A stretch of DNA of 41,679 nt, taken from Rhodobacter sp. (GTDB lineage: Bacteria > Pseudomonadota > Alphaproteobacteria > Rhodobacterales > Rhodobacteraceae). This document shows positions 17,157 to 20,092 of the stretch, one piece after another (within the stretch, counting starts at the first letter, position 1; the number at the start of each line of letters is the position of its first letter). A model generated the notes under the pieces. It made no database searches. It worked only from the letters and a program-made list of their open reading frames with translations, and was not told where the DNA came from. The stretch lies in the NCBI GenBank assembly GCA_027487395.1, contig JAIYDR010000238.1, positions 1 to 41,679 of the forward strand, written 5' to 3'. Position numbers and translations under genes: made by a program.

Positions 17157-17792
17157 TCAGCGCAGGATCGTCGGGTAATCTTCGCGCGACGACCAGTTCT
17201 TCGTCAGCAGCGGCAATCCGAACATCGACGAGACCAGCATCCCGCCGCCAATGGCCGAGTTGCCTTTCTTTGGTGTCGACACCAGTTTCATCGGCCAGAA
17301 CATTTTCGACATATACCCACCACCGCGCATGGCCGAGGTGCGGGGCTTGCTTTGCATAATCGGGTTGCTGCCCAAGATATGCCCATGTGACGACCGGCTG
17401 AACGAGTTCGACATCAAAAGCGGGTGGCTCTTCATGACGCTGTTGGCATGGCGGGCATCGGGATATTCGCGCAGATAGACGTCTTCATCTTCCAGACCGA
17501 CATTCAGCGCCGGGTGTTTGCGCAGAACCTTGATCGCGGCGCGGGCGGTGCCCACCGGGTTGAACGGCGCCTGAACCACCAAAAGCGCCTGACCGCCGGT
17601 CATTGCCGCCTGATAGGCCTTGGCCGAGAAGGCCGTGACGCGTGCGGACTTCATCGCGGCCGCAGCGCCGCCACTGACATCGGCGGTGATGATATGGATG
17701 ATGTCCTCATCCAGCCCATAGCTCAACAAGCTGGCCTTGGCCGCCGCTGCCGCGGAGGAGTCAGAATAAAGCCGCGTGATGATTGTCGTCAT
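17157..17792 (-). CDS. puc-operon-linked protein of unknown function; N-terminal half resembles general-stress GSP17M/YflT-like domains
   Basis: MTTIITRLYSDSSAAAAAKASLLSYGLDEDIIHIIT; follows pucC closely on the same strand and precedes the terminator; basic Ser/Gly/Met-rich C-terminus. Confidence 0.75.
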   Translation of the reverse strand: MTTIITRLYSDSSAAAAAKASLLSYGLDEDIIHIITADVSGGAAAAMKSARVTAFSAKAYQAAMTGGQALLVVQAPFNPVGTARAAIKVLRKHPALNVGLEDEDVYLREYPDARHANSVMKSHPLLMSNSFSRSSHGHILGSNPIMQSKPRTSAMRGGGYMSKMFWPMKLVSTPKKGNSAIGGGMLVSSMFGLPLLTKNWSSREDYPTILR

Positions 17793-17844: not shown

Positions 17845-19332
17845 TCAGCGTGTTCTTCCAGCCGCGAAGGTTTGCGGTGTTCTAGGCTGCGCTCCGTGCG
17901 GTTCCGTGCCACCCGAAAGATAGGTAGTTTGGACCGGATCGACATCAATGGGTCTGGATTCAGACTTGCCACGCAGTGGCAGGGCCAAAAGCAGTGCCAG
18001 TGCCAAGAGGCCAGCTTCGATCAGGAACACCGATGTATAGGGCGCTGCGGCGGACGCGCCCACGACCTCGGTCGCCACGATCGTATCGCGCACTGCACCC
18101 CCAATGGCGATGGCAAGCCCGGCCGATGTTGCCTGCACCGCACCCCAAGCGCCAAGCGACAGACCGATCTGATCGCGCGGCGCCGAGCGCATCGTGGCCG
18201 TCAAGGTGCCATGTCCGAACAGCCCGGCACCAAAGCCCGCCATCAGCGTGCCTGCCATCAGCATCGGCACCGACAGCACCGACGATGACCAGACAATCAG
18301 CCCAAAGGCCGGTAGCCCCACGGCTGCGCCAAACAACGCCATGTCGATGGGCCGCGTCCCCGCACCCAGCCAACGCGACGCCAGGACAAAGCCGACAAGG
18401 CTGCCGCAGGCCAGAAACACGGTCAGCCGCGTTGTGTCGGCAATGCTCATCATCAGGACTTGACCGCCAAACGGTTCCAACAACACGTCTGCCATGCCAA
18501 AGCCAGCCGTCCCAAGCCCGATGATCGCCAAAAGCCGGAACATGCCCTTGCGTTCGGTCAGACGGGCCCAGGCTTCGCCAAAGGTGACCTCTGGACCCTT
18601 CGGCGCAAGCGCCCGCATCCGGTCGCGTGCCTCTTGCTTCCACATCGCAAAGAAGTTCAGCGCGACAGTGATCACGGCCGAGCCTTGAATGACCTGAATC
18701 AGGCGGCCTGGTGTGTAATTCTGCAACAGTGCGCCATAGGTGAAGGCGCTGACGATCATGCCGACCAGCAGCATCACATACATCAGGCCCACGACCTTTG
18801 GCTGATCTTCTTCCGGCACCAGATCAGTGGCCAGCGCCAGCCCGATGGTTTGCACGATATGCACGCCCGCGCCGACCAGCAAGAATGCCAGCGCGGCAGA
18901 ACTGAGCCCAATCCAGCGCGGCGCATCAATCGCTTCGCCGTAACCAGACAGCACCAAAAGCGCGAAGGGCATGATGGCAAAGCCACCAAACTGCAGCATC
19001 GTGCCTTTGAAGATATAGGGCAGGCGCCGTAGTCCCAGCGCAGACTTTAGCCGATCAGAGCGAAAGCCGATCAAGGCGCGAAACGGGGCAAATACCAGTG
19101 GTAGCGCCAGCATCGCACCAACGAGGGTGGCTGGCACGCGCAATTCCACGATCATCACACGATTCAAGGTGCCGACCATCAAGACAAGCGCCATGCCGAC
19201 CGTCACTTGAAACAGGGACAGGCGCAGCAAGCGCGAAAGCGGCACCTCATCGGAAGCGGCGTCGGAAAAAGGCAAGAACCGGACCCCGACCCCCGAGATT
19301 TTGCGAAGCGCGAAACTCTTGTAGTTGAACAT
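17845..19332 (-). CDS. pucC: PucC-family (BCD/LhaA) light-harvesting assembly protein
   Basis: RLSLFQVTVGMALVLMVGTLNRVMIVELRVPATLVGAMLALPLVFAPFRALIGFRSD; 12-TM MFS-like. Confidence 0.95.
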   Translation of the reverse strand: MFNYKSFALRKISGVGVRFLPFSDAASDEVPLSRLLRLSLFQVTVGMALVLMVGTLNRVMIVELRVPATLVGAMLALPLVFAPFRALIGFRSDRLKSALGLRRLPYIFKGTMLQFGGFAIMPFALLVLSGYGEAIDAPRWIGLSSAALAFLLVGAGVHIVQTIGLALATDLVPEEDQPKVVGLMYVMLLVGMIVSAFTYGALLQNYTPGRLIQVIQGSAVITVALNFFAMWKQEARDRMRALAPKGPEVTFGEAWARLTERKGMFRLLAIIGLGTAGFGMADVLLEPFGGQVLMMSIADTTRLTVFLACGSLVGFVLASRWLGAGTRPIDMALFGAAVGLPAFGLIVWSSSVLSVPMLMAGTLMAGFGAGLFGHGTLTATMRSAPRDQIGLSLGAWGAVQATSAGLAIAIGGAVRDTIVATEVVGASAAAPYTSVFLIEAGLLALALLLALPLRGKSESRPIDVDPVQTTYLSGGTEPHGAQPRTPQTFAAGRTR

Positions 19333-19384: not shown

Positions 19385-19424
19385 GTGTGAGGCCCCCTGG
19401 CCGGAGGACAAGGGAGCCTCACAC
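19385..19424 (-). terminator. pucA-pucC intercistronic stem-loop (probable mRNA stabiliser/attenuator)
   Basis: GTGTGAGGC-C-CCCT ... AGGG-A-GCCTCACAC, 13 paired bp with one mismatch; located between pucA and pucC. Confidence 0.75.
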
Positions 19425-19459: not shown

Positions 19460-19765
19460 TTAGTTCGACGCCATCAGTTCAGGCCGCTTCAAGATCGCAA
19501 GGGCCGTCGTGCCATCCGGCATCGTGATCAGGACTTCCTGCCCTGCCGAAGCAGAGTAGGAGACTTTGGCTGCATCCTGCTCGGGCAGGACAAGCGAAGC
19601 CGCCGCCATGCCGCCAGCCGACTTGCCGGACAGGAAATCAGCAACCCAGGTCGTGTTGCTGAGAACGGCGACGTGGACGGCGAATGACCCCACGGCGACC
19701 GCACTCAGGAACAAAGGCACCCCAACGGTTGGCTTAACGACAAGCCACATTTTTGCGTTGTTCAT
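19460..19765 (-). CDS. pucA: LH2-type light-harvesting alpha subunit with long C-terminal extension
   Basis: [47 protein letters not shown]...; 101 aa. Confidence 0.95.
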
Positions 19766-19775
19766 GATGCGCCCC

Positions 19776-19931
19776 TCACCCAAGCCACGGTGTGGTAACA
19801 GCCACCAAGATATGCGCGATGAGGGCGATGACGCCGAACACGCGCGTACCGTCGATCAGGTAGCTGTGGACTTCTTCTGCTTCTCTCAAGGTCAGGCCAG
19901 TCGGCCACACCTTGTCAGGATCGTTGGACAT
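19776..19931 (-). CDS. pucB: LH2-type light-harvesting beta subunit (51 aa)
   Basis: Hand translation [51 protein letters not shown]; absent from the ORF track because it is short. Confidence 0.96.
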
Positions 19932-20063
19932 ATGAGTTCCTCCGTGCCCTCGTCGTCACTTTCAGACAGGGGCAGAGTGACGACATTGGCTCTGCCCAGT
20001 CCAGACAAGCGAACGACTCGCAGCCTGCTTGATGGACCTGTGCCAAGATGTCACTACTGATTT

Positions 20064-20092
20064 ACACTTTCAAGTGTCTATAATGATTGACA
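20064..20092 (-). promoter_or_regulatory. puc upstream region with PpsR/CrtJ-type motif TGT-N12-ACA and adjacent palindrome
   Basis: TGTCTATAATGATTGACA (20075-20092) fits TGTN12ACA exactly; overlapping palindrome ACACTT-TC-AAGTGT (20064-20077); about 140 nt upstream of pucB. Confidence 0.75.

Follow-up and report, generated by a model that had tools for sequence, protein, structure and literature searches.

A probable LH4/High-800-type antenna operon, pucBAC-orfX, in a Rhodobacter genome

The puc operon and its putative control elements

The window analysed here is a stretch of 41,679 nucleotides (contig JAIYDR010000238.1, positions 1 to 41,679) from a Rhodobacter sp. genome of the family Rhodobacteraceae (assembly GCA_027487395.1). 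A real puc operon with its full gene set can be read directly from the sequence, and it is most likely of the LH4/High-800 type already known from marine Roseobacter relatives. The genes and the features associated with them are as follows.

17157..17792, minus strand: orfX, 211 aa, fourth of the puc operon genes, without a match in Pfam or NCBIfam
17845..19332, minus strand: pucC, antenna assembly/bacteriochlorophyll delivery protein (PF03209, E=5e-143)
19385..19424, minus strand: strong RNA hairpin with a 14-bp stem in the pucA-pucC gap (z -5.2, 0/200 shuffles as stable)
19460..19765, minus strand: pucA, LH2 alpha subunit, 101 aa, with Val41/Phe44/Leu45, Ser27 and His31, the B850 ligand position (translation, Pfam, HMMER)
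19463..19624, minus strand: C-terminal extension of PucA, residues 48-101, a flexible linker and a predicted beta-hairpin (alignment, AF2)
19631..19636, minus strand: codons of Phe44 (TTC, 19634-19636) and Leu45 (CTG, 19631-19633) (sequence)
19776..19931, minus strand: pucB, LH2 beta subunit, 51 aa (PF00556, Pfam)
20049..20066, plus strand: PpsR/CrtJ-type box TGT-N12-ACA upstream of pucB (consensus match)
20075..20092, plus strand: second PpsR/CrtJ-type box TGT-N12-ACA upstream of pucB (consensus match)

The spacing between pucB and the downstream pucA is 10 bp, and gaps of 127 bp and 52 bp follow between pucA and pucC and between pucC and orfX. The hairpin in the longer gap occupies a position typical of mRNA-stabilising intercistronic hairpins. 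The sequence TGT-N12-ACA is the consensus of PpsR/CrtJ (PMC10890935), and besides the two boxes upstream of pucB a third site (19913-19930) overlaps the pucB start. Since the entire window contains only 7 such sites against a shuffle expectation of 4.6, the boxes were judged on their clustering and on the finding that 60 of the 62 related loci have one or more such sites. As a control, the window shuffle expectation was preferred to a pucC background, which gave zero sites.

Identity and colour-setting residues of PucA

The initial annotation had described a PucA with Phe44-Leu45 on the minus strand at 19460-19765, and translation, codons and alignment all bear this out. The plus strand reads caggaa at 19631-19636, which gives TTC for Phe44 and CTG for Leu45 on the minus strand. 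The protein matches PF00556 (LHC) with E=4.5e-13 over residues 3-41. As in other LH2 alpha chains, its one LHC domain spans the membrane once and contains the His that ligates B850; this residue, His31, is invariant in 62 PucA relatives. HMMER aligned residues 1-49 to the Rhodobacter sphaeroides LH2 alpha chain (7PBW, B800-850) free of gaps, with W40 V41 A42 D43 F44 L45 opposite W40 L41 P42 A43 Y44 Y45. A shift of W-V-A-D-F-L relative to W-L-P-A-Y-Y, named in the initial annotation as a refuting condition, is absent over this range, and the residue numbering holds. The two chains share Ser27 and His31 but differ in the Tyr44-Tyr45 pair of R. sphaeroides. A chance reading frame is not a suitable explanation for pucA because pucB lies 10 bp upstream, pucC lies downstream, and Phe44 and Leu45 are present in most of the 104 distinct relatives.

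Regarding known structures, the best PDB match of the window PucA is the Rhodopseudomonas palustris PucD complex 7ZE3 (E 1.9e-15), which has V41 F44 M45 and thus shares Val41 and Phe44 with the window chain while carrying Met45 in place of Leu45. The Phe44-Leu45 pair is native to LH3 of Rhodoblastus acidophilus 7050, as the initial annotation had stated, and it is found in the PDB sequence of this B800-820 complex (1IJD) together with Tyr41. That annotation was silent on Val41, on the roughly 50-residue C-terminal extension of PucA and on the fourth operon gene.

Expected absorption of the complex

The number of hydrogen bonds to the B850 pigments is correlated with the absorption wavelength in nine structures, in which two C3-acetyl bonds correspond to about 850 nm, one to about 825 nm and none to about 800 nm (PMC9618040). 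LH3 of Rbl. acidophilus 7050, absorbing at 820-824 nm, keeps a single C3-acetyl bond via Tyr41, which bonds the alpha-B850 acetyl group (PMC9618040, Table 1). In the 803 nm complex 7ZE3 the B850 hydrogen bonds are absent and no substitute donor is found (PMC9618040). The window PucA combines V41, F44 and L45, and therefore lacks an acetyl donor at each of the known positions. Val41, Phe44 and Leu45, at the sites that usually serve the alpha chain for this purpose, would be unable to form hydrogen bonds to the C3-acetyl groups of B850-type pigments. The unbonded groups would be expected to lie out of the plane of the bacteriochlorophyll ring, and the band of the coupled ring would shift to the blue until it coincides with that of B800, leaving a single peak at about 803-806 nm.

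Antennae with a single peak near 800 nm, designated LH4, have been reported for Roseicyclus mahoneyensis (806 nm), Roseobacter litoralis (806 nm) and Dinoroseobacter shibae (804 nm), as well as for Roseobacter denitrificans (PMC12654162). According to this 2025 review, F44L45 is a motif common to the Roseobacter-type LH4 of aerobic phototrophs, and its occurrence in the PucA of Rb. denitrificans and D. shibae is taken on the word of the review (PMC12654162). For R. mahoneyensis DSM 16097 (L042), the WVADFLSG tuning segment of PucA is identical to that of the window. The prediction of about 803-806 nm follows from the lack of a donor in V41-F44-L45, the 803 nm absorption of 7ZE3, the F44L45 relatives at 804-806 nm and the shared WVADFLSG segment of the 806 nm R. 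mahoneyensis complex. The likeliest product of the window pucBA would hence be an LH4/High-800 antenna. The window operon, pucBAC-orfX, is probably of the LH4/High-800 kind found in Roseobacter and belongs to a Rhodobacteraceae host resembling aerobic anoxygenic phototrophs; its complex would show one peak at about 803-806 nm. This wavelength is deduced from the hydrogen-bond correlation and from published spectra of relatives.

The initial annotation had proposed a blue-shifted, LH3-like antenna. A blue shift is indeed expected since the acetyl-bonding tyrosines are gone, but the assignment to LH3 (B800-820) is not supported and probably wrong: Phe44-Leu45 is present, and the Tyr41 donor of 1IJD is replaced by Val41, for which reason membership in LH3 was rejected. 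On the LH3-like reading, the complex would be a B800-820/830 one whose two bands are resolved, like that of Rbl. acidophilus 7050 or the engineered R. sphaeroides Y44F/Y45L. The initial annotation had correctly given the latter as shifted to the 820s nm; without Tyr44 and Tyr45, it absorbs at 826 nm with Ser27 still bonding (PMC9618040). The window PucA shares its residue pair 44-45 with 1IJD and retains Ser27, the C13-carbonyl donor in R. sphaeroides, so that a band at 820-830 nm is possible and the LH4 reading is weakened. It also counts against LH4 that, according to PMC5783997, it is not yet clear how 'B850' moves all the way to 803 nm. Nevertheless, a two-band complex is considered unlikely in view of Val41 and because absorption at 803-806 nm is known both for the best PDB match and for those relatives whose spectra have been published.

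Residue 41 does not determine the colour by itself. The deposited B800/820 chain 9DWZ has F41 F44 Q45, so Tyr41 is not the sole route to 820 nm. Likewise, the absence of Tyr41 alone does not give 805 nm because the 826 nm R. sphaeroides mutant has Leu41, and the absorption of this double mutant implies that other residues must contribute to the colour.

A normal 850 nm complex would require that some other residue supply the acetyl bonds, such as the Trp in the conserved TPWLG of the beta chain. This Trp is retained in the window PucB, and a beta-chain Trp serves as a donor in Phaeospirillum molischianum (PMC9618040, Table 1). However, R. mahoneyensis absorbs at 806 nm with nearly the same PucB, and no donor substitutes in 7ZE3, which makes this alternative very improbable. 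We suggest with moderate to high confidence that the 820 nm label of the window antenna be replaced by about 805 nm. The consequence for annotation is a correction of the two-residue rule: Phe44-Leu45 alone cannot separate an 820 nm from an 805 nm antenna, and residue 41 has to be read too.

Genomic context and distribution

The source genome is fragmented (3.94 Mb, 430 contigs) and 91% complete. A survey of all pucA copies, as proposed in the initial annotation, detected one pucBA pair, that of the window, and one pufBA pair. The window pucBA is the only peripheral antenna detected; a second pucBA could be missing at this completeness. A further pucA of the Tyr type was considered for this genome and rejected with the same reservation, and a search of plasmids with PucA gave no match. 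The genes for the reaction centre subunits L and M and for PufX are present, with pufBALMX on another contig and thus separate from pucBAC. On that contig (C388, L007:1-2723), pufBALM is followed by the PufX gene (PF11511) and dxs. The C-terminus of the LH1 alpha chain encoded there, NPAYNWFSIASAKYSYAPAATE, is of a type that recurs in only 2 of 17 further genomes with puf in this genus.

The Roseobacter LH4/High-800 systems of Rb. denitrificans, Rb. litoralis, D. shibae and R. mahoneyensis share with the window the Phe44-Leu45 pair and the status of sole peripheral antenna. In contrast, the window host has a Rhodobacter-type puf operon with PufX, whereas Rb. denitrificans and R. mahoneyensis have a cytochrome c bound to the reaction centre (PMC12654162). 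The nearest relatives of the window system are largely Tabrizicola/Rhodobacter-type MAGs, which also sets it apart from the Roseobacter LH4 systems. The Rps. palustris PucD-LH2 (7ZE3, B800-803) differs too, since its genome has several puc pairs, only one of which encodes it.

Among 104 distinct PucA relatives, V41-F44-L45 is the commonest form (79 sequences). The puc operon occurs in 6 of the 19 genomes of the window's genus, and a PucA match was found in 38 of 298 genomes sampled across Rhodobacteraceae, comprising 34 of the window's kind and 4 of the classical Tyr-Tyr kind. Given these numbers, Phe44-Leu45 is an ordinary motif for this PucA family. The LH4/High-800 antenna type is already known, and the undescribed part of the operon is orfX.

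The C-terminal extension of PucA

About 50 additional residues follow Gly47 and are conserved among the PucA chains of the window's kind, although in one of the 34 genomes (G225) they are not complete or are broken by a stop. Within it, D84-G85 is invariant in 62 aligned PucA relatives, a set that was chosen for having such an extension. The AF2 model has a low confidence (mean pLDDT 66) and can be used for no more than the helix and the hairpin; it places a beta-hairpin at residues 76-92 around D84-G85, with strands 76-81 and 87-92, after a flexible linker. The topology of LH2 would place the extension in the periplasm, where one could guess that it packs inside the mouth of the ring.

An LH2 alpha chain with a long C-terminal extension is already known in the R. 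sphaeroides paralogue Puc2A (L158), but the extension of this 263-aa protein differs from that of the window PucA, and the R. sphaeroides genome is devoid of orfX. The chain in 7ZE3 is without a long extension. A search of the openly available papers found nothing on the PucA extension, which does not prove its absence elsewhere.

orfX, the fourth operon gene

The gene orfX is the most promising lead of this analysis, and its family might account for some of what is unusual about the High-800 complex. In the window's genus, all 6 genomes that have puc also have orfX, and the other 13 have neither (Fisher p 3.7e-5). Across the family, it was found in 34 of 34 genomes with the window's kind of PucA, in 0 of 4 with the classical Tyr-Tyr kind and in 1 of 260 others. 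The p-values for orfX ignore shared ancestry and operon linkage, the linkage itself being the point here. In this last genome, which has no PucA match, orfX lies in two abutting pieces (G144, contig C3:45695-46367) that look like what is left of a puc operon after its loss.

Searches of Pfam and NCBIfam assigned no family to orfX or its repeat-rich relatives. The AF2 model consists of an alpha/beta N-terminal domain (residues ~1-110, pLDDT ~90 up to residue 100) and an extended C-terminal part without a predicted fold (residues 111-211, pLDDT ~50). A Foldseek search with this model returned nothing significant, the best hits (E 0.05) being CutA/PII-like ferredoxin folds. Relatives of orfX include L024:4905-5945 and L064:4871-5962. 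In many relatives, the C-terminal part contains a variable number of tandem repeats rich in aromatic residues and proline, such as the 25-aa FPIPLISRRKPxxxFAFPRHARMAN or the 15-aa FPFAHIVPGHKYMAK, and strong repeats of 15 or 25-26 aa are present in several of them. The window orfX has two recognisable repeat units with a z of 2.8, which is not decisive alone as at least one shuffle scored as high. Its nearest relative (L011) reaches a repeat z of 8.3.

In their kind, these tandem repeats recall the LH2 gamma ribbon of Rps. palustris (7zcu_S, 97 aa), which has repeats of about 16 aa and was reported by its authors only from Rhodopseudomonas. The 7ZE3 complex carries this ribbon, in which it differs from the window system. 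A search of the PDB with the window orfX gave no match at E<=10, the gamma chain included, and in pairwise shuffle tests of orfX relatives against gamma a few repeat parts reached z 4-5.6, with a median z of 0.6 over all. These comparisons do not demonstrate that orfX and gamma are homologous. By analogy, the High-800 antenna may have three parts, with orfX as a structural component of LH2 that winds around the ring like a ribbon and perhaps binds or orders additional bacteriochlorophylls absorbing at about 800 nm; this proposal is tentative and rather doubtful at present.

The puc operon of D. shibae, like that of the window, has four genes (Dshi_2897-2900) and is regulated by PpsR (PMC10890935), and we infer that its fourth gene is an orfX homologue. 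The openly available papers that were searched yielded nothing on orfX, without proving its absence elsewhere.

Possible exchange of the tuning segment

The residue distribution in the relatives, read directly from their sequences, includes PucA forms that deviate from V41-F44-L45. On a PucC tree of 91 loci, the 11 rows with Tyr44 need 10 changes, at least 7 of them forced by well-supported branches, and their scatter resembles that of shuffled labels. Tyr41 goes with Tyr44 in 9 of the 11 rows, an association of borderline significance (sign test p 0.03). Examples with both Tyr41 and Tyr44, usually with Lys37 (SK..WYN.YL), are L031, L034, L060, L074, L141 and L148, which are scattered on the PucC tree. 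Such forms are predicted to regain the acetyl hydrogen bonds via an unusual residue pair.

A mosaic structure of pucA became apparent in Marivita and its kin when strains with WYNNYL and with WVADFL were compared (L061, L066 and L081 versus L064, L072 and L077). The DNA identity drops to 40-55% over pucA codons ~36-60, compared to mostly 75-97% in the flanks; near the pucA start and over much of pucC it is 85-97%. The residue 36-60 segment of PucA thus seems to have been swapped between Phe44 and Tyr44 forms by recombination in Marivita. An effect of this exchange on the spectrum would be expected from the residues involved, and such natural exchanges of the colour segment render the spectral rule directly testable. 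The pair L081 and L064 illustrates the pattern, as both sequences are near-identical through codon 36 and diverge after it.
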